A stretch of DNA of 64,000 nt from Leptothermofonsia sichuanensis E412 (GTDB lineage Bacteria; Cyanobacteriota; Cyanobacteriia; Leptolyngbyales; Leptolyngbyaceae): positions 5,580,001-5,644,000 of the forward strand of contig NZ_CP072600.1 of assembly GCF_019891175.1 (NCBI RefSeq). The letters run 5' to 3'. The notes beneath the pieces were generated by a model. The model was given only the letters and a program-made list of their open reading frames with translations. It was not told the DNA's origin and did not search any database. How positions within the stretch are numbered: position 1 is the first letter of the stretch; the number at the start of each line of letters is the position of its first letter. Positions 42,701 to 54,661 of the stretch are shown piece after piece. Both the position numbers and the translations under genes were made by a program.

Positions 42701-43015
42701 AGTTTATAGCTGCTTCGATGAGATGCACAACAAATCGTTGAAAAAGCTGTGTTAAATACTACAATGCCCGAAATCTTTGTTAATTTACCACAAGATAGAT
42801 TTCCTTGAAGGCTACTTGCCCCGATCGAAAAGGCTGAAAGTACCACCAGGAGCGGGATTAAAACACTTCAGAAAAAATTTAAAGTAGTTTGATTCCAGAG
42901 ACACGACTCCTCAGGCGTCCAAAGCTTAAGGATCGTGGATTACAGCCGTTATTGATTGAGTAAGCCACATTCTGGTAGGCTAAAACAACTATCAAAAGCT
43001 AGGAGCTAGCTGCTT

Positions 43016-43375
43016 ATGCCCGCCCCTCTGTCAGTTGATCTACGGCAACGAATCATGGCAGCCTATGAAGCTCAAGAAGGATCACAACGGCAACTGGCAG
43101 AGCGCTTCAAGGTGAGCTTATCGTTCATTCGAGATCTAAGGCGACACTATTGTGAGACAGGCACCGTGGAGCCTAAAGCGCACGGAGGAGGAGCCATTGC
43201 CAAGTTGGGCAAAGAGCAGTTGCCCATCGTTGAAGCCCTAGTCACGGCTCAACCGGATGCCCTACTCAAGGAGTTGTGTGAACGCTTTGCCCAACAAAGT
43301 GGAGTGGAGGTGAGTATATCAACCATGCAACAGGCTGTGTCTAAGCTCAAGCTCAGCGTCAAAAAAAAACACTGA
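43016..43375 (+). CDS. IS630 transposase, N-terminal frame (copy 1)
   Basis: 119 residues before a stop codon. Helix-turn-helix domain: LSVDLRQRIMAAYEAQEGSQRQLAERFKVSLSFIRDL. The AAAAAAAAA run at 43361-43369 lies just before the TGA; slipping back by one base gives KKKTLIASQQDTQRVKDLRF, the usual linker into the catalytic half. Without slippage only this DNA-binding part is made and it may act as an inhibitor, as in related elements. Confidence 0.9.
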   Translation: MPAPLSVDLRQRIMAAYEAQEGSQRQLAERFKVSLSFIRDLRRHYCETGTVEPKAHGGGAIAKLGKEQLPIVEALVTAQPDALLKELCERFAQQSGVEVSISTMQQAVSKLKLSVKKKH

Positions 43376-43401
43376 TTGCCTCCCAGCAAGATACTCAAAG
43401 G

Positions 43402-43971
43402 GTGAAGGATTTGCGGTTTGCTTATCGCCTGTGGAGTTTTACAATCGACCCGCGCAACTTGGTTTTCATTGATGAAACGGGCATCCATCTGGCAATGACT
43501 CGTTTGTCTGGTCGTGCCCCCATCGGTGAACGCTTGTATGACACTGAGGCTCCTGGCGATGGGGGCAAGAATATCTCGTTGATTGGTGGCATGAGTATTG
43601 ATGGGTTGATTGCTAGCATGAGTATTGTTGGCAGTGTCAATACTGACGTGTTCTTGTTCTACATCCAGGAGATTCTGATTCCGCAATTGTGGGTAGGGGC
43701 GATCGTGCTGATGGATAATCTACCCGTGCATCATGCTTCAGTCGTGCAAGCGGCAATTGAATCGGTTGGAGCCAAGGTTGTGTTTCTGCCGCCTTATTCC
43801 CCAGACCTTTCACCGATTGAACTATGTTGGTCAAAACTCAAGCAGCTCCTGCGTTCAGCCAAGGCTCGAACGCAGGAAGCGCTCGACCAAGCTTTAACCA
43901 GGATTATCAACGAGTGTATTTCTGCTGACGATGCCCTTGGCTGGTTCAATCACTGTGGCTTATTCATCTGA
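43402..43971 (+). CDS. IS630 transposase, catalytic DDE frame (copy 1)
   Basis: Catalytic half of the transposase, probably reached only by -1 frameshifting from the upstream frame. The DDE triad is seen as FIDETGIH, LMDNLPVHH and SPDLSPIELCWSKLK. Start codon position is only nominal. Confidence 0.88.
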   Translation: MKDLRFAYRLWSFTIDPRNLVFIDETGIHLAMTRLSGRAPIGERLYDTEAPGDGGKNISLIGGMSIDGLIASMSIVGSVNTDVFLFYIQEILIPQLWVGAIVLMDNLPVHHASVVQAAIESVGAKVVFLPPYSPDLSPIELCWSKLKQLLRSAKARTQEALDQALTRIINECISADDALGWFNHCGLFI

Positions 43972-44146
43972 GAACCGCTGTAAGTAAACCGAAAAACTCA
44001 GGGTTCTACCATAGAGACCCAGAGGCCGGGGAATTGCTCTGTGTTCTCCGTGCCTCTGTGGTAAAGTTTCAGGCTACAAAATCCTCATCCCTGAGGGAGG
44101 GTGCGAAGGCTGTGTGTCTTTAGTGTTCTCACAGTTCCCTGATGGT

Positions 44147-45206: not shown

Positions 45207-45719
45207 ATGGCTGGAGTCACCTCGGTTAAAGTCAAAGAAAGTCTCGATGAGCTAGTCCAACAATTGCAACAAGTGGAAACACCAAAGGACAAGGAACGCC
45301 TGCAAGTGCTGTACTGGCTCAAACAGGAAAAGCCACCCAGCATTGGTGCGATTGCCAAGGCGATCGGGAAACATCGCAATACAGTAGGGAGATGGTTATT
45401 GCAGTATCGGGAAGGTGGGGTGAGTGCCATGCTGGAACGTAAAGTGTCGTCTGGCGGTGTCCGCAAGATTCCACAATGGGCGGAAGAGGCACTGGCTAAG
45501 CGATTAAAGAACTCGGAACATGGATTTGCCAGTTATGGAGCTGTGCAACAGTGGTTAGCGGAGGAGTTGGGTGTCGAAGCGGAGTATCATGCGGTATACC
45601 AAATGACGCGCTATCGCCTCCAAGCGAAGCTGAAAGTGGCTCGTCCGCAAAATATCAAGCAGGATTGTGAACGGCGCGAATCATTTAAAAAAACCTTGCA
45701 GATGACCTGGAGTTGTTGA
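45207..45719 (+). CDS. IS630-type transposase, N-terminal frame
   Basis: Begins MAGVTSVKVKESLDEL. Helix-turn-helix region PPSIGAIAKAIGKHRNTVGRWLLQYREGG and a second DNA-binding part (GFASYGAVQQWLAEELGVEAEYHAVYQM). At 45687-45693 seven A's (TTTAAAAAAACC) would allow a -1 shift to SFKKNLADDLELLSQY, joining the catalytic frame. Reading on without a shift ends at TGA 45719. Confidence 0.88.
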   Translation: MAGVTSVKVKESLDELVQQLQQVETPKDKERLQVLYWLKQEKPPSIGAIAKAIGKHRNTVGRWLLQYREGGVSAMLERKVSSGGVRKIPQWAEEALAKRLKNSEHGFASYGAVQQWLAEELGVEAEYHAVYQMTRYRLQAKLKVARPQNIKQDCERRESFKKTLQMTWSC

Positions 45720-46282
45720 GCCAGTATGCTCGGCAAGTCATCCAGGAGGAGCGTCCTATCCGTTATTTTGCTCAGGATGAAAGTCGCTTTGGACTCAAAA
45801 CCCTGATTGGGCGCTTGATTACTGCTTGTGGTATCAAACCGATTGGGCAATGGCTATGGTTGTTCAAAGCGTTTTGGCTCTATGGGGCCGTCGAACCAGC
45901 AACCGGAGAGTCGTTTTTCTTGCAATTCTCCCATGTGGATACTGCTTGCTATCAAGCGTTCCTCGAGGAGTTCTCCAAAGCCTACCCCGATAGTCTCAAC
46001 ATTCTACAAGTGGATAACGGGCGTTTTCACAGCAGTAAAGATTTAGTGGTGCCAGAGAATGTGATTTTATTGTTTCAACCTGCTTACTGCCCAGAGTTAA
46101 ATCCGATTGAAAGGTTGTGGGAATACCTCAAGGCAGATTTGAAGTGGGCTTCGTTCAAAACGCTAGAGCAACTCCAAGCGAAGGTCGATCAACTCCTGGC
46201 TCAATTGACTCCAGAAGTTATTGCTTCGATCACAGGATATTCCTTCATCCTGAATGCCCTATCTGCCCTGAACCCCATTTAA
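45713..46282 (+). CDS. IS630-type transposase, catalytic DDE frame
   Basis: Catalytic half in the -1 frame. Triad residues lie in RYFAQDESRFGLK, LQVDNGRFHSS and CPELNPIERLWEYLK. Complete to its C-terminus (LNALSALNPI). A full enzyme would need the frameshift. Confidence 0.87.
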   Translation: MLSQYARQVIQEERPIRYFAQDESRFGLKTLIGRLITACGIKPIGQWLWLFKAFWLYGAVEPATGESFFLQFSHVDTACYQAFLEEFSKAYPDSLNILQVDNGRFHSSKDLVVPENVILLFQPAYCPELNPIERLWEYLKADLKWASFKTLEQLQAKVDQLLAQLTPEVIASITGYSFILNALSALNPI

Positions 46283-46468: not shown

Positions 46469-47176
46469 TTACTCACTGACCGGAAGAGAGACAACAACCG
46501 TTTGCAAACCATTGGTGTGATGTTTGCAGGAAACCTGGCCATTCTGAATTTCAATCTGGCGGCAGCAAAGAAGGACTTCAGTGGCAAAGTCACGATCGCC
46601 CTGGGGGGCAAACCGCTGAGCCGTGATGCGTAAAAGCACCTGCCCTGCAACAGACTCTACCGCCAATACCACCGGAGAGTCCGGATCAGAATACTTCATA
46701 CTTCTGGCTAACAACTCAGTTAAGACGGATTCTGTCAATTCCCGATCCGCCAGAATCGAAGGTAGGGGTGGAGTGGTTTCGCAGATCAGGCGGGCGGTAC
46801 TGCCATCCTTTGTAGCAAGTAAGTGGCGCGTGACCGATGCCAGCAATGAATCAAGAGCAATCGACTCAAGCCGAATATCCACTTTGCCAGCTTCCAACTT
46901 TTGCAACAACATGGCATCCGCCATTAAATCGCACAAACTGCTGATCTCATGTTGCATCAAATTCAAATAGGTCTGCCAGTTGTCGTGCGCTTCCAGAGAA
47001 CCATCAATCGGACTGAGATAATGCTGAATAGCCTGTAGCGATCGCCCAACCCGGCGTTCCAGAGATTCAATCACAGACCGTTGAGCAGAAGAATATTTCT
47101 GAAGCTCAAGATTTTCAGCTTGCAGTTGTTGCAAGATTGCTGAGAGCGTTTTAACTGAGAGAGCCTGCTGGGACAT
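46469..47176 (-). CDS. Degenerate histidine-kinase-like protein
   Basis: 235 residues starting MSQQALSVKTLSAILQQL. A coiled N-terminus leads to a dimerisation-like helix pair (RRVGRSLQAIQHYLSPIDG, then LCDLMADAMLLQKLEAGKVDI) in which the phospho-accepting His-Glu of the H-box is missing. The ATPase-like part keeps the fold (PSILADRELTESVLTELLARSMKYSDP) but the N-box Asn is replaced and the DxGxG and following G-boxes are absent. It can neither bind ATP normally nor phosphorylate itself, so it is probably a pseudokinase, perhaps a scaffold or sensor. Divergent from the AAA+/ferredoxin fusion gene. Confidence 0.75.
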   Translation of the reverse strand: MSQQALSVKTLSAILQQLQAENLELQKYSSAQRSVIESLERRVGRSLQAIQHYLSPIDGSLEAHDNWQTYLNLMQHEISSLCDLMADAMLLQKLEAGKVDIRLESIALDSLLASVTRHLLATKDGSTARLICETTPPLPSILADRELTESVLTELLARSMKYSDPDSPVVLAVESVAGQVLLRITAQRFAPQGDRDFATEVLLCCRQIEIQNGQVSCKHHTNGLQTVVVSLPVSE

Positions 47177-47507: not shown

Positions 47508-50051
47508 GTGGAACAGGCAGAACAAATCGCATGGCTCAGACAAAACACCAGCCTGGAATCTTTATCTGAAGAAACATTAAGGGCGATCGCCGCCGTCATT
47601 CAGGAAGAACCATTTCAGGAAAACCGCCGCCTCCTGCTGGAGGATACGGTACCGGAGGCGCTGTATATCCTCAAAACAGGTCGGCTGGAAAGTTACCGTA
47701 CCAGCAAAACCAGCCTTGCCCAGGCCGTCAGTCTTCTACCTGGCAGCATTTTGAATCTGAAAGAATTGCTGTTGAACCAGTCCGTTGAGCAGACGGTCAT
47801 CACCTTGAGTGATGGGGTATTGTGGGTGATTCCGAAAGCAACATTTCTGGCGATCGCCCAACAATATCCTGAAATCAGTCAAATTTTTTCGCGCCAGTTA
47901 GCCACCGAACTGGATCAGGTTTCTGCCCAACTCGTCTATGAACGGGAACGGCAAACCGCCCTCCGTCCCTACCTGGTGCCCAAAGTGAAACGGGGCATTA
48001 TTGGCACCAGCCGTTATGCCGTACGGCTACGTCAGGAGATTCGCAAAGCATCTCAAGATCGGCAATCGGTTCTTATCTTTGGGGAACCAGGATTGGGAAA
48101 AGACAATGTAGCGGGGTTAATTCACTTTGGTTCCAGCGATCGCCATGAGCCGATGATTAAAATTAACTGCGACACCATTCAAGCCAGCGGAGCAGAACTA
48201 TTTGGGCGGGCCGGGGGCAGGCCTGGACTGATTGAGTGGCTGGGGGGAGGCACCCTCTTGTTGAACAATGTTCAAGAACTGACCACGGAGCTTCAGGAAA
48301 AACTGGTGACCCTGCTGGAAACAGGTGAATACACGCCAGTGGAGCGGCAGGGCGAACCCCCGCCTACTCCCCGCCAGTGTCAGGCACGTATCCTGATGAC
48401 TTCTGAGAAAGTATTACCCGTTCTGGAACGTAAAGGGCTGGTAGGGCATGTCATTAAAGTGCCCCCCCTGCGAGTGCGCAAAGCTGATATCAGTGCCCAG
48501 GTTGAGTATTATCTGAGCCTGACCTGTCGGGCCAGAGGATTTCCAAAACCTGAGGTGACTCCCGAAGCCATCCGTCGGCTTCAAGGCTATGACTTTCCCG
48601 GCAACCTGACTGAGTTAGAGAGCATGGTGGAACGGGCGCTGTTACAGGCAAATGGAGCTACTGAACTGACCGAAGAAGTGTTCTGGTCCGTGGATACCAA
48701 GGGCAGACGATTTCGGGTGAATCTCCTGAATCTTTACCCCAACCTGCGCAAGTTTCTCCGGAGTCCCTGGTATCCCGATCGCATCAACTATGGCTTCACC
48801 CTGGGCTTCTTTGCTGTAGTGGTCGCAGTCCTGATGCTGGGACCCCAAAGCCGGGATAGCAACTTTGCCCTGAATCTCTTCTGGGCATGGTGGTGGCTTT
48901 TAATTCTGGTAGTTTTTCCATTTCTGGGACGCATCTGGTGTGCCTTTTGCCCGTTTATGATCTATGGCGAACTGGCGCAGAAAGTATCCCTCTGGCTTTA
49001 TCCCCGTAAACTGCTGCCCTGGAATCGTCAGGCAGCCGAAAAGTGGGGTGGCTGGTTTCTGTTCAGTCTGTTCAGCCTGATTTTGTTGTGGGAAGAACTG
49101 TGGAATCTGGAAAATACGGCCTATTTATCGGGATGCCTGCTGCTGTTGATTACGGCAGGAGCAGTTATTTTTTCCCTGCTGTTTGAACGCCGGTTCTGGT
49201 GCCGTTACCTCTGCCCCATTGGAGGCATGAATGGGCTGTTTGCCAAGCTATCGATGACCGAACTGCGGGCACAGCAGGGCATTTGTTCCGCCACCTGCAC
49301 CACCTACCAGTGCTATAAGGGAGGACCGCAGAAGGGCGAAGGCATGGAAACAGGTGGCTGTCCCCTCTACTCCCATCCCGCCCAACTGGAAGACAACCGG
49401 GACTGTGTTCTCTGCATGACCTGCCTCAAAGCCTGTCCCCACCGTTCAGTTGAATTTAATTTGCGCCCACCCGGAATCGAACTGTGGACAACCCACACGC
49501 CCACCTATCCTGAAGTTTGCCTCCTGTTTCTGCTGTTTGGGGCGGTGTTTCTCCATCGCTTACCTGAAATTGAAGCCGAATTTGGCTGGGACCTGTATCT
49601 GGACCATTTTGCCATTCATGCTGGAGTGTCGCTGCTGGCGTTGCTGGTGCCCGCTGCGATCGCCCTCCTTGCCGATACGCTGATTCGACTGATTCATACC
49701 CTGCGCCACCACGTCTTTCCCCGCCCCTTTCTGGAACTTGCCTACGGCTATCTGCCCCTGGTTTTAGCTGCGAATCTGGCCCATTATCTGCGCCTGGGAT
49801 TGACCGAAATGGGGCGAATCATCCCGGTTACCTTTGCTACCTTTGGGTTTGGCACTGCCAATCTTCCGGTTGCCATTGCCCATCCTGCTGTCATTGCCTT
49901 TTTGCAGGCAGTTACACTGATTTTGGGTTTCTGGTTGAGTGTGTTTCTAACTCAAAAAATTGCCCGCCAGTCTTTCTGGAACCTGCTACCTCAACACCTG
50001 GCAATGGTTGTGATCGGCTCCTTACTGTGGAAGGTGATCGTAGGGTGGTAA
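47508..50051 (+). CDS. Membrane fusion protein: cNMP-binding-like + enhancer-binding AAA+ + NapH-type polyferredoxin
   Basis: I take GTG 47508 (MEQAEQIAWLRQ) behind GAGGTGGGG; a GTG at 47457 also fits. About 847 residues. First about 150: Crp-like beta-roll (LYILKTGRLESYRTSKTS). Then an AAA+ domain like NtrC: Walker A GEPGLGKDN, KINCDTIQASGAELFG, LGGGTLLLNNVQELT, PPLRVRKADI. The GAFTGA sigma-54 loop is deleted and Walker B Asp-Glu are Asn-Asn, so ATP hydrolysis and polymerase contact are unlikely; cyanobacteria lack sigma-54. Then about nine membrane helices with NapH-type motifs WCAFCPF and FWCRYLCPIGG, and a ferredoxin cluster CVLCMTCLKACPH. Probably a membrane redox or electron-transfer sensor. 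An SRPBCC gene follows 25 bases downstream. Confidence 0.88.
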   Translation: MEQAEQIAWLRQNTSLESLSEETLRAIAAVIQEEPFQENRRLLLEDTVPEALYILKTGRLESYRTSKTSLAQAVSLLPGSILNLKELLLNQSVEQTVITLSDGVLWVIPKATFLAIAQQYPEISQIFSRQLATELDQVSAQLVYERERQTALRPYLVPKVKRGIIGTSRYAVRLRQEIRKASQDRQSVLIFGEPGLGKDNVAGLIHFGSSDRHEPMIKINCDTIQASGAELFGRAGGRPGLIEWLGGGTLLLNNVQELTTELQEKLVTLLETGEYTPVERQGEPPPTPRQCQARILMTSEKVLPVLERKGLVGHVIKVPPLRVRKADISAQVEYYLSLTCRARGFPKPEVTPEAIRRLQGYDFPGNLTELESMVERALLQANGATELTEEVFWSVDTKGRRFRVNLLNLYPNLRKFLRSPWYPDRINYGFTLGFFAVVVAVLMLGPQSRDSNFALNLFWAWWWLLILVVFPFLGRIWCAFCPFMIYGELAQKVSLWLYPRKLLPWNRQAAEKWGGWFLFSLFSLILLWEELWNLENTAYLSGCLLLLITAGAVIFSLLFERRFWCRYLCPIGGMNGLFAKLSMTELRAQQGICSATCTTYQCYKGGPQKGEGMETGGCPLYSHPAQLEDNRDCVLCMTCLKACPHRSVEFNLRPPGIELWTTHTPTYPEVCLLFLLFGAVFLHRLPEIEAEFGWDLYLDHFAIHAGVSLLALLVPAAIALLADTLIRLIHTLRHHVFPRPFLELAYGYLPLVLAANLAHYLRLGLTEMGRIIPVTFATFGFGTANLPVAIAHPAVIAFLQAVTLILGFWLSVFLTQKIARQSFWNLLPQHLAMVVIGSLLWKVIVGW

Positions 50052-50076: not shown

Positions 50077-50544
50077 ATGTCAGATCAGAGAGTTTTCGAG
50101 CAATCCGTCCAGATTAATGCCAGTGCCACCATCGTCGAGCGGTGCATTACCGATCGCACCCTGATGCATCGCTGGTTAAACCCTGCCCTCCGATGCGAAC
50201 CCATTGGTGACTGGTCAACGGAACTGGGCAGTCAGAGTCGCTTCATCATTCAAGTACCGTTGTTGCAGCCCAGCTTAAAGAGCGTGGTGGTGGAACGAGA
50301 ACCGGGACTGGTTGTTTGGGAATTTAACGGCTTTTTCAAGGGGCGCGATCGCTGGGAGTGCAACCCGGAACCGACAGGGACTCGCCTGCTGAACCGATTT
50401 GAGTTTGAAATTCCCAACCCCTTTGTTCGGTTTGGCTTTAATACGTTTGCCTCCTCCTGGACTCAAACCGATATGCAGGCACAGTTACAGCGGCTGAAAC
50501 AGGTTGCTGAGGAAGTTTACCAGCGAGAAGGGGTTGCTGGATAG
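50077..50544 (+). CDS. SRPBCC (START/polyketide-cyclase-like) family protein
   Basis: ATG 50077 with AGGAA just upstream; the TTG at 50056 would overlap the site. 155 residues with the hydrophobic-cavity fold: FEQSVQINASATIVERCITDRTLMHRWLNPALRC, RFIIQVPLLQPSLKSVVVEREPGLVVWEFNGFFKG, TRLLNRFEFEIPN, and a long C-terminal helix that closes the pocket. Such proteins bind lipids, pigments or other hydrophobic ligands. It lies 25 bases behind the AAA+/polyferredoxin gene, so the two are very likely one operon and it may serve or sense a membrane cofactor. Confidence 0.82.
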   Translation: MSDQRVFEQSVQINASATIVERCITDRTLMHRWLNPALRCEPIGDWSTELGSQSRFIIQVPLLQPSLKSVVVEREPGLVVWEFNGFFKGRDRWECNPEPTGTRLLNRFEFEIPNPFVRFGFNTFASSWTQTDMQAQLQRLKQVAEEVYQREGVAG

Positions 50545-51426: not shown

Positions 51427-53007
51427 ATGAGTAAGCGTACTGAGCCAGCCCTGATTCTGGCATTTTTGATTACAGCTGGTTTGAGCGTTGGGGGACTCTG
51501 GCTATTGAACAGGGTTTCACCTGGCTTGATTCCCGGTTTGTCCAGCCAAACGGCTCCACTGGCAGATGGCAACTCAACTGACTCGCAGCAAAAGGTTCAG
51601 CTAACCATCTTAGGAGACACCTTTAGCGGTTACAGTACCTTTCGTAGTGCTACGTTTCAGGATGCCCTGAAAGAGTCTGGAATCAGCCTCCGCTATGAGG
51701 ATGAATTTGATCAGGCAAAGCGAGTTACGCGCCTTAATCAGGGACAGGCAGACCTGATCGTAACAACACTGGATCAGTTTCTGAAGCAGAAGCCAGCAGG
51801 CAAAATTGTGGGATTAATTGACCGCACCGTGGGAGCTGACGCTGTGGTGCTGAATACGCGGAAATATCCCTCGCTCAAGTCTTTGCTGGATCTGAACCAG
51901 GTGGTCAACCAGGCGCGGGCAAATGGGCGATCGCTGGGCATGACCTTTGCTGGGGATACCCCCAGTGAATATCTGGCACTGGTGCTGGATACAAAGTTTG
52001 AGGCTTTTAATCTGCAAGATTTTCAGATCAACAAGGTCGAAGATGCTTCAGAAGCCTGGAAACAGTTACAGGATCCCAATCAAGATGTTGCCATTGCCAT
52101 CATCTGGGAGCCATTTGTGACCCAGGCGCGGCAACAGGGGTATACCGTAGTCCTCTCCAGTAAAGATGCCCCAGAGGCGATTGTGGATGTGGTCATTGCC
52201 TCGAATCGTCTGCTCCAATCTCAGCCTCAAGTGATCTCTGAATTTCTGGAAGCCTACTACCGTCGCATAGATAGCAACGTTCGGGATGGTTCTCAACTCC
52301 AGGCGCAAATTGCCGAAGATGGCAAATTGTCTGCCAGTGATGCTGCTGCCGTTTTACAGGGAATTGATTTTTTCACAGCAGCGGAAGCACAGGAATGGAT
52401 GACCAGTGGCACACTAACCCGACGGATTAACTCAACCGCAGCGGTGTTAGCCCTGACCGGGCGACTGAACCAGGTGCCTCAGAAGCCAGAAGCCCTGTTC
52501 ACCAGCCAGTTCATTGCCAGAGCAGCCAATAACACGAAAACCCTGGTTGATCTGGTGCGGGCAGACAACCCGGCCCTGGCAGATCGACTTTCTGGTAAGG
52601 GGAGAGCGATCGCCCCGACCCAAAAGCTGACAGTCAGCCAGGTCAAAGCGGCTCCGGCCATTGGCAATCTACAGGTACGGGGTGAAGTCAGTTTTGGGGT
52701 AGGCTCAGCCGACTTAACGCCTGCTGGCGAAAAAACACTGAATCAACTGGTGCAGGAGATCAACGAGTTCAATACCCAGACCGTTGCTGTGCGTGTGATT
52801 GGACACACCTCGCGCACTGGCTCCGCCAGCATCAACCAGACGCTCAGTCAACAACGGGCACAGGTTGTGGTGAACTATCTGCGGGGGAAAGGGATTCGGC
52901 ACAACATCACAGCAGAGGGCAAAGGCTTCAACGAACCCATTCCCGGAATTTCCCCCGAAAACTCCCGCAACCAGCGTACTGAGATTCGTCTGGTCAGGAT
53001 TAATTAA
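51427..53007 (+). CDS. Periplasmic substrate-binding protein fused to an OmpA domain
   Basis: 526 residues. N-terminal membrane helix (LILAFLITAGLSVGGLWLL) acting as signal or anchor. Residues about 55-330 are a solute-binding fold of the NMT1/SsuA type (TILGDTFSGYSTFRSATFQDAL, RLNQGQADLIVTTLDQFL, MTFAGDTPSEYLALVLDTKF, IAIIWEPFVTQARQQG). After about 405, an OmpA C-terminal peptidoglycan-binding domain: GEVSFGVGSADLTPAGEKTLNQL, VRVIGHTSRTGSASINQTLSQQRAQVVVNYL, GKGFNEPIPG, RNQRTEIRLV, with the Asp/Arg-type meso-DAP site replaced by Thr/Arg variants in the GHTS loop. The combination would tether a ligand-binding module to the cell wall. No ABC permease is adjacent. Confidence 0.88.
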   Translation: MSKRTEPALILAFLITAGLSVGGLWLLNRVSPGLIPGLSSQTAPLADGNSTDSQQKVQLTILGDTFSGYSTFRSATFQDALKESGISLRYEDEFDQAKRVTRLNQGQADLIVTTLDQFLKQKPAGKIVGLIDRTVGADAVVLNTRKYPSLKSLLDLNQVVNQARANGRSLGMTFAGDTPSEYLALVLDTKFEAFNLQDFQINKVEDASEAWKQLQDPNQDVAIAIIWEPFVTQARQQGYTVVLSSKDAPEAIVDVVIASNRLLQSQPQVISEFLEAYYRRIDSNVRDGSQLQAQIAEDGKLSASDAAAVLQGIDFFTAAEAQEWMTSGTLTRRINSTAAVLALTGRLNQVPQKPEALFTSQFIARAANNTKTLVDLVRADNPALADRLSGKGRAIAPTQKLTVSQVKAAPAIGNLQVRGEVSFGVGSADLTPAGEKTLNQLVQEINEFNTQTVAVRVIGHTSRTGSASINQTLSQQRAQVVVNYLRGKGIRHNITAEGKGFNEPIPGISPENSRNQRTEIRLVRIN

Positions 53008-53155: not shown

Positions 53156-53255
53156 GCAAACCCCCTAACTGTTCATCATTTACAGCCGTTATTGATTGAG
53201 TAAGCCACATTCTGGTAGGCTAAAACAACTATCAAAAGCTAGGAGCTAGCTGCTT

Positions 53256-53615
53256 ATGCCCGCCCCTCTGTCAGTTGATCTACGGCAACGAATCATGGCA
53301 GCCTATGAAGCTCAAGAAGGATCACAACGGCAACTGGCAGAGCGCTTCAAGGTGAGCTTATCGTTCATTCGAGATCTAAGGCGACACTATTGTGAGACAG
53401 GCACCGTGGAGCCTAAAGCGCACGGAGGAGGAGCCATTGCCAAGTTGGGCAAAGAGCAGTTGCCCATCGTTGAAGCCCTAGTCACGGCTCAACCGGATGC
53501 CCTACTCAAGGAGTTGTGTGAACGCTTTGCCCAACAAAGTGGAGTGGAGGTGAGTATATCAACCATGCAACAGGCTGTGTCTAAGCTCAAGCTCAGCGTC
53601 AAAAAAAAACACTGA
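53256..53615 (+). CDS. IS630 transposase, N-terminal frame (copy 2)
   Basis: Identical at protein level to the frame at 43016-43375, ending at the stop after the nine-A run (53601-53609). Helix-turn-helix DNA-binding half. Confidence 0.9.
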   Translation: MPAPLSVDLRQRIMAAYEAQEGSQRQLAERFKVSLSFIRDLRRHYCETGTVEPKAHGGGAIAKLGKEQLPIVEALVTAQPDALLKELCERFAQQSGVEVSISTMQQAVSKLKLSVKKKH

Positions 53616-53641
53616 TTGCCTCCCAGCAAGATACTCAAAGG

Positions 53642-54211
53642 GTGAAGGATTTGCGGTTTGCTTATCGCCTGTGGAGTTTTACAATCGACCCGCGCAACTT
53701 GGTTTTCATTGATGAAACGGGCATCCATCTGGCAATGACTCGTTTGTCTGGTCGTGCCCCCATCGGTGAACGCTTGTATGACACTGAGGCTCCTGGCGAT
53801 GGGGGCAAGAATATCTCGTTGATTGGTGGCATGAGTATTGATGGGTTGATTGCTAGCATGAGTATTGTTGGCAGTGTCAATACTGACGTGTTCTTGTTCT
53901 ACATCCAGGAGATTCTGATTCCGCAATTGTGGGTAGGGGCGATCGTGCTGATGGATAATCTACCCGTGCATCATGCTTCAGTCGTGCAAGCGGCAATTGA
54001 ATCGGTTGGAGCCAAGGTTGTGTTTCTGCCGCCTTATTCCCCAGACCTTTCACCGATTGAACTATGTTGGTCAAAACTCAAGCAGCTCCTGCATTCAGCC
54101 AAGGCTCGAACGCAGGAAGCGCTCGACCAAGCTTTAACCAGGATTATCAACGAGTGTATTTCTGCTGACGATGCCCTTGGCTGGTTCAATCACTGTGGCT
54201 TATTCATCTGA
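53642..54211 (+). CDS. IS630 transposase, catalytic DDE frame (copy 2)
   Basis: Same as 43402-43971 except that His replaces Arg in QLLHSAK near the last catalytic acid (Glu in SPIELCW). Both copies could still be active if frameshifting works. Confidence 0.88.
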   Translation: MKDLRFAYRLWSFTIDPRNLVFIDETGIHLAMTRLSGRAPIGERLYDTEAPGDGGKNISLIGGMSIDGLIASMSIVGSVNTDVFLFYIQEILIPQLWVGAIVLMDNLPVHHASVVQAAIESVGAKVVFLPPYSPDLSPIELCWSKLKQLLHSAKARTQEALDQALTRIINECISADDALGWFNHCGLFI

Positions 54212-54220
54212 GAACCGCTG

Positions 54221-54661
54221 TAATTCACAATTCAATATTCTGAGACACCTTCTGATTCCAGTCTTATACCTGGAGGTCGAACCCTGCCTGACGAAATGCG
54301 TGTACTGCATTCAGTCAATGCAATTCAGGCATGGCTATCACTATAGCCGTGGGGTCAGGACAAATTAGAACTTGAACGTTGGCCATCTGGTCTTTCTCAC
54401 CCTGTTCCCTGTCCCCTGCCATAGCAGCCTGTCACTCATAATGCATCCAACACCATGCCTAATTTAAATAACCCCGCATTGGACTGTGGTTAAGCCTCGA
54501 TGAAGGTTGGATAAATTCACAGTCGGCAGGTGGAGGCCGGAGTTTCCTGCCTGGCAACGAGTATGAATGGTGCTAATCCCATACATAACCTGCCAACAAG
54601 CTGGTTAACAAGCTGGTTACATGAGGATATTGGGTTTCAGACGTTTTGTCAGTCGCGCAGT
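54221..54661. other. Intergenic region with a dispersed repeat, no gene seen
   Basis: 54341-54425 belongs to the GTCAGRACAAATTAGAA repeat family (GGGTCAGGACAAATTAGAAC then TTTCTCACCCTGTTCCC). AAGCTGGTTAACAAGCTGGTTA at 54598-54618 is a small tandem repeat. Confidence 0.45.
54341..54425. repeat. Dispersed repeat (GTCAGRACAAATTAGAA type), copy 3
   Basis: ATAGCCGTGGGGTCAGGACA, then AATTAGAACTTGAACG and a C/T-rich end with TCCCTGTCCCCTGCCATAGC, matching 16291-16425 at both ends. Confidence 0.5.

Follow-up and report, generated by a model that had tools for sequence, protein, structure and literature searches.

Enhancer-binding proteins such as NtrC, NtrX, PspF and NifA (PF00158 and PF25601) place an AAA+ domain and its lid after an N-terminal sensor module. 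Their AAA+ domain carries a Walker A Lys, an ELFG motif, a GAFTGA loop, a Walker B Asp-Glu pair and arginine fingers, and is accompanied by a helix-turn-helix DNA-binding domain. TyrR, DhaR, VpsR and YplP are soluble DNA-binding regulators. In these four sigma-54-independent proteins GAFTGA was lost and the domain was reused (PMC3162934), and sigma-54 and its activators were reported to be absent from 29 cyanobacteria in the same study (PMC3162934). The polyferredoxins of the NapH/MauN and NosR type (TIGR02163, PF12801) combine membrane helices with CxxCP, CxxxCP and CxxCxxCxxxCP ferredoxin motifs, and NapH-like proteins were proposed to accept electrons from quinol or similar donors and to move them through Fe-S centres to the other side of the membrane (PMC8238504).

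Features of these systems are united in a single protein encoded in the window, a stretch of 64,000 nucleotides from the genome of Leptothermofonsia sichuanensis E412. The protein and its relatives share the AAA+ fold, the lid, the Walker A Lys and ELFG with the enhancer-binding proteins, and their AAA+ domain likewise follows an N-terminal sensor module. However, GAFTGA, the Walker B Asp-Glu, the arginine fingers and the helix-turn-helix are missing, the organism is devoid of sigma-54, and a membrane Fe-S domain replaces the DNA-binding domain. Loss of GAFTGA and reuse of the domain are shared with TyrR, DhaR, VpsR and YplP, none of which is joined to a membrane Fe-S protein. The membrane helices and Cys motifs are those of the NapH/MauN and NosR-type proteins, but the fusion family differs from them in a score far below the NapH cut-off (54 versus 213 bits), in an extra C-terminal membrane domain and in a cytosolic AAA+ head in place of a flavinylated extracytosolic domain. 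In the stand-alone relatives from Deinococcus ficus and Halobaculum the chain carries neither an AAA+ nor a Crp-like head. A literature search for this domain architecture found no report. Judged from sequence, from which its mechanism is also proposed here, this is a real, widespread, uncharacterised and misannotated family that brings known domains into a new combination.

Gene and domain organization

The fusion gene starts with a GTG codon at position 47508, is preceded by a plausible ribosome-binding site and stays open over 847 residues (47508-50051, forward strand) without an internal stop. It is present in a single copy in the 6.43-Mb genome. Pfam matches above cut-off were obtained for cNMP_binding (residues 35-120), Sigma54_activat (164-301), AAA_lid_14 (322-384) and Fer4_5 (545-581). 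Along the chain, a Crp-like roll is followed by an NtrC-type AAA+ domain with its lid and then by a NapH-type membrane Fe-S domain; another helical membrane domain forms the C-terminus. The features are, in window coordinates:

47508-50051 (+), fusion-protein gene, 847 aa, stop codon included (open frame, Pfam, same frame in 265 of 390 Cyanobacteriia genomes)
47610-47867 (+), Crp-like roll, residues 35-120 (PF00027, 43.7 bits)
47871-47972 (+), long helix linking roll to AAA+, residues 122-155 (AlphaFold2 model)
47997-48410 (+), NtrC-type AAA+ core, residues 164-301 (PF00158, 70.7 bits; Foldseek to NtrX, NtrC1, FlrC, PspF)
48081-48104 (+), Walker A GEPGLGKD, residues 192-199 (alignment; K198 and D199 each in 133 of 133 main-clade rows)
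48207-48224 (+), site of the missing L1/GAFTGA insert, RAGGRP, residues 234-239 (alignment to PspF/NifA)
48264-48269 (+), Walker B acids changed to Asn-Asn, residues 253-254 (each in 132 of 133 main-clade rows)
48471-48659 (+), AAA+ lid, residues 322-384 (PF25601, 42.4 bits)
48906-49457 (+), NapH-like membrane Fe-S region with 12 invariant Cys, residues 467-650 (TIGR02163, 52-54 bits; cut-off 213)
49473-50048 (+), C-terminal helical membrane domain, residues 656-847 (sequence relatives, AlphaFold2 model)
50077-50544 (+), SRPBCC (Polyketide_cyc2) gene, 25 bp downstream of the fusion gene (Pfam)

The open frame and the Pfam domains verified the initial annotation, which had placed roll, AAA+ and NapH-type domain in one chain. 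Two genes joined by a sequencing error can be excluded because the fused long frame recurs in 265 of the 390 Cyanobacteriia genomes.

The phosphate-binding cassette of the roll, which canonically contains Glu and Arg, is non-canonical in the window protein (GSILNLKELLLNQSVEQT) and has no Arg of the RxA motif. Among the aligned relatives the conserved cassette Glu is kept in main-clade rolls, and the clade-2 cassette is altered further. The roll has been lost in several lineages, the AAA+ head has not. Without a canonical cassette and absent from several lineages, the roll is therefore not the constant part of the family.

The altered AAA+ head and the membrane Fe-S part

The AAA+ core is of the Sigma54_activat type (PF00158, 70.7 bits against a cut-off of 20.2). 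In the AlphaFold2 model, confidence is fair to high for the roll, the linking helix and the AAA+ core and poor for the Fe-S loop. Foldseek matched the AAA+ model to structures of NtrX, NtrC1, FlrC and PspF, nucleotide-bound ones among them. Motif states were read from an alignment of the family rows to PspF and NifA. As had been claimed from the sequence at the outset, the Walker A Lys (K198 in GEPGLGKD) and ELFG are kept and the GAFTGA loop is deleted. Within the family as sampled no row with an intact GAFTGA was found, and a GAFTGA-like pattern occurs in none of the 110 loci-derived proteins. Every family row examined has lost both this insert and the catalytic Glu of Walker B. The further claim that both Walker B acids are lost holds for the main clade (TLLLNN instead of TLFLDE in the window protein; N253 and N254 each in 132 of 133 main-clade rows), but not for clade 2 and clade f2, in which the first Asp is mostly kept. 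The arginine-finger segment FRxDLxxRL is deleted in the family rows, the only exception being a tandem protein whose first domain has an altered version. In the window protein the Sensor I Asn (ATN changed to SE) and the Sensor II Arg are both lost; across the family the former is replaced and the latter is kept inconsistently. On these motifs the head is a pseudo-ATPase, in which the catalytic and sigma-54-contacting parts are gone and the nucleotide-binding Lys is kept.

Whether such a head would still bind nucleotide is the point at which two readings part. The main-clade Walker A is GEPGL(G/E)KD, with the Lys and the following Asp present in all 133 rows and a Glu before the Lys in 86 of them (GxxGLEKD). 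As the Mg-binding Asp is also changed to Asn, the predicted nucleotide affinity is perhaps low or nil. The head could then be a scaffold that binds no nucleotide and holds the Fe-S membrane units together as an oligomer or docks a partner; the loss of most catalytic positions, the unusual Walker A and a Crp-like roll without a canonical ligand cassette agree with this. Nevertheless, all 150 aligned sequences, whatever their clade, have the P-loop Lys, and a pure scaffold is not expected to retain phosphate-binding residues. Also gone are the arginine fingers that make contacts between subunits in the rings of enhancer-binding proteins, which likewise speaks against an oligomeric scaffold. This alternative is thus rated as somewhat unlikely, and a head that binds nucleotide is preferred in what follows.

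All 12 Cys of the Fe-S motifs (C478, C481, C565, C569, C593, C597, C602, C618, C633, C636, C639 and C643) are invariant in the 150 aligned sequences and include two membrane-edge CP motifs and a ferredoxin-like motif. The region has membrane helices, paired CP motifs and a [4Fe-4S] ferredoxin motif and matches PF12801 above cut-off, and its score against the NapH/MauN profile TIGR02163 (54.4 bits) lies below its curated cut-off of 213. A stand-alone protein of Deinococcus ficus (WP_027463891) is 31.8% identical over 98% of the membrane part, C-terminal domain included, and one of the haloarchaeon Halobaculum (WP_179171393) is a weaker match (26% over 88%). Stand-alone relatives thus share the C-terminal membrane domain as well, the Deinococcus protein more strongly than the haloarchaeal one. 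Sequence searches for solved relatives of the membrane part returned none beyond short ferredoxin-like stretches, and Foldseek with the low-confidence membrane model gave no match with E < 0.001. Given conserved His residues in the C-terminal helices, a putative b-heme was considered there.

Distribution, constraint and the regulator annotation

Relatives were found in 265 of 390 Cyanobacteriia genomes and 126 of 160 genera, about two thirds of the sampled cyanobacteria, mostly with the same long frame. The best 80 loci of a contig scan were all cyanobacterial. When 194 cyanobacterial genomes were searched with the membrane part alone, it was not found as a stand-alone protein; the matches listed were long frames of the fused kind, apart from a few short ones that were split or cut. 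Nor was a head of this kind found apart from the membrane part in cyanobacteria. In the phylum no NapH domain fused to an AAA+ domain with intact GAFTGA was found, the GAFTGA-bearing chains of other classes lying outside the NapH-part search. Those chains (L172-L175, 393-778 aa) contain ordinary enhancer-type AAA+ domains, some in tandem; L172-L174, from another class of the same phylum, are tandem pairs with mostly GAFTGA-like loops and Asp-Glu Walker B motifs. The fusion gene is absent from a genome of the window's own genus that was scored 100% complete (G122), so that loss occurs within the genus.

In the tree the family forms one clade apart from the true enhancer-binding proteins (SH-aLRT 99). 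Clade 2 is about 41% identical to the main clade and has the same layout in about 900 aa, a GxxGxGKT Walker A and a mostly Asp-Asn Walker B. Clade f2 comes from a single cyanobacterial family with mostly small genomes; its members no longer have the roll but keep the first Walker B Asp. One genus carries a tandem version with two AAA+ domains in a chain of 1134 aa (L185, 4104-7505, in G025; also in G040 and G054). The first of these has a Walker B VLDH, lacks GAFTGA, is less altered and branches basal to the main clade and f2. This position, taken from one short-search tree, suggests that the loss of GAFTGA and the catalytic Glu preceded that of the Asp.

About 40 close pairs gave a median dN/dS of 0.17 for the roll, 0.08 for the AAA+ domain, 0.036 for the NapH region and 0.10 for the C-terminal membrane domain. 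The AAA+ domain is hence under strong purifying selection, and this constraint together with the constant fusion identifies the head as a functional altered module and not a relic. The loss of catalytic motifs is all that could be said for a decaying relic or an assembly artefact, a reading that is refuted by the recurrence of the frame and by the dN/dS of the AAA+ domain and carries practically no weight.

The initial annotation had described the AAA+ domain as freed from its sigma-54 task in organisms without this factor. Sigma54_DBD (PF04552) was above cut-off in none of 59 Cyanobacteriia, the genome of the window included, while control genomes were positive. This agrees with the published survey and bears out the absence of sigma-54. 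No Pfam match to a helix-turn-helix or other DNA-binding domain was found in the fusion protein, in which membrane helices come after the lid. The description of the domain is thus supported by the lack of Sigma54_DBD, GAFTGA and helix-turn-helix and by the NapH-type fusion. Other Sigma54_activat hits among the matches listed for the window's genome were weak (3.8e-7 and poorer) and fell in frames of 885-966 aa that are Clp-like by size, which leaves the fusion protein as its only strong enhancer-type AAA+ domain. In a fragmented cyanobacterial assembly, a very strong single sigma-54 activator domain (1.4e-74) was seen in a 495-aa frame (G056:C856:542-1042), possibly on a contaminant contig.

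A clade-2 member bears the product name 'nitrogen assimilation regulatory protein', which is also the annotation of Synechocystis slr1529 (PMC3516471, PMC4182526). Because this name is shared and strong enhancer-type AAA+ domains were otherwise hardly seen in the cyanobacteria searched, slr1529 is likely a member of the family. The gene was named ntrX and falls to a ratio of 0.29 in high copper (PMC4182526); under iron deprivation its transcript change was negative at the first time points (PMC3516471). In a knock-out study that treated it as a transcriptional regulator, its mutant was not one of the four strains whose growth in BG11 differed but was among the most metabolically changed at 72 h by PCA (PMC5318462). 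The product name and this treatment of slr1529 are what recommends a transcription regulator of NtrC/NtrX type. Such a role is nonetheless very unlikely: sigma-54, GAFTGA, the ATPase residues and a DNA-binding domain match are all missing, and a membrane protein sits where the DNA-binding domain would be. Missing motifs, retained Lys and Cys, constraint and the lack of sigma-54 and of a DNA-binding domain together identify a pseudo-ATPase/Fe-S fusion that is spread through the class and wrongly annotated as a regulator.

Genomic context and proposed function

The SRPBCC gene is probably co-transcribed with the fusion gene in this genome. It was rejected as a functional partner as no homolog was detected in any other family locus examined. 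The hydrophobic ligand or cofactor proposed from this tight linkage was consequently not borne out, the SRPBCC gene being private to this genome among these loci. No conserved neighbor was found among 81 main-clade loci. A cysK-like gene was seen in only two main-clade loci, more than 7 kb upstream. The genome of the window has three cysK-like genes elsewhere and no clade-2 copy.

Other elements near the locus were recorded. Two copies of a 1044-bp insertion sequence (42940-43983 and 53180-54223; 99.9% identical, same orientation) flank about 9 kb with the fusion gene in a composite-transposon-like layout, yet the gene is widespread in the class. A transposase-like gene split over two frames (45207-46282) lies beside the locus. 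A short histidine-kinase-like protein (46469-47176, reverse strand), perhaps a truncated or altered sensor, gave weak kinase-model matches and no Pfam kinase domain above cut-off. A chain with an NMT1/THI5-like substrate-binding domain and a C-terminal OmpA domain is encoded at 51427-53007.

In 21 of 28 distinct clade-2 loci (a Pseudanabaena plasmid met twice was counted once) the fusion gene is followed directly or almost directly by a cysteine-synthase gene on the same strand, which is the very next gene in 16; the Aulosira neighbor is above the TIGR01139 cut-off for cysteine synthase. Because of this pairing, the partner pathway of clade 2 is probably sulphide/cysteine metabolism. Near some clade-2 loci there are genes for rhodanese, DsrE, DUF2892, CydB (cytochrome bd), Rieske proteins, psbA variants, an ArsR regulator, a weakly SQR-like flavoprotein and an HdrB-like CCG protein, and by this gene context the surroundings look like a sulphide or low-oxygen island. 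Clade 2 is partly plasmid-borne, with two plasmid copies in Aulosira laxa and Pseudanabaena galeata. The plasmids AP018309.1 (L191) and NZ_CP112877.1 (L192) hold the clade-2 gene with cysteine synthase, Rieske, psbA variant and rhodanese genes, the latter island also a DsrE gene; these islands are candidates for a mobile sulphide/low-oxygen module. The terms looked for were not mentioned in the report of Grim and Dick on a sulphide-using cyanobacterium (PMC5061849). Since the main clade has no conserved neighbor, a sulphur link for it would be carried over from clade 2, with its identity of about 41%: context argues for a sulphur role in clade 2, and for the window's clade such a role is only suggested.

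The pairing with cysK could also mean that signals run in the reverse direction, with the membrane Fe-S part sensing redox state or sulphide and the AAA+/roll head recruiting a cytosolic partner, for example the clade-2 cysteine synthase. The sensor-like head and the redox and sulphur genes of the islands fit such a scheme. On the other hand, 12 invariant Cys with two CP motifs and a ferredoxin-like motif resemble a conduit more than a single sensor site, and the main clade lacks a conserved partner, making this direction improbable.

A motor domain that has shed its catalytic and sigma-54 parts, kept the Lys and been joined to an Fe-S carrier points to a likely energy- or redox-controlled electron valve. 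The product would be a membrane-bound NapH-kind Fe-S electron-transfer protein with a cytosolic pseudo-ATPase head that derives from the AAA+ domain of enhancer-binding proteins and usually follows a Crp-like roll. The head would bind nucleotide without turnover, probably in oligomeric form. Depending on what it has bound, it would open or close the path for electrons that links the quinone pool to a partner in the cytosol, for example ferredoxin or a sulphur compound. That a nucleotide-binding, non-hydrolyzing head gates NapH-kind membrane electron transfer, with the sulphur link confined to clade 2, is the reading that we tentatively favor, at slightly less than an even chance; gating of electron flow in response to a nucleotide had already been suggested in the initial annotation. 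Its most specific form, a class-wide Fe-S membrane oxidoreductase between plastoquinone and ferredoxin or thiol/sulphide partners that is gated by a non-hydrolyzing, nucleotide-sensing head of sigma-54-activator origin, is considered doubtful.

In a phylum without sigma-54, the family exemplifies an enhancer-binding AAA+ domain that has moved fully out of transcription and has long been preserved, now a frozen pseudo-ATPase, as part of an electron-transfer protein. As about two thirds of the sampled cyanobacteria carry it under the label of a nitrogen regulator, knock-out and expression data have been read under the wrong heading. The pairing with cysteine synthase in clade 2 provides a first testable role for the fusion family. 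If the valve proved true, it would represent a new coupling of adenylate state to photosynthetic or sulphur electron flow.
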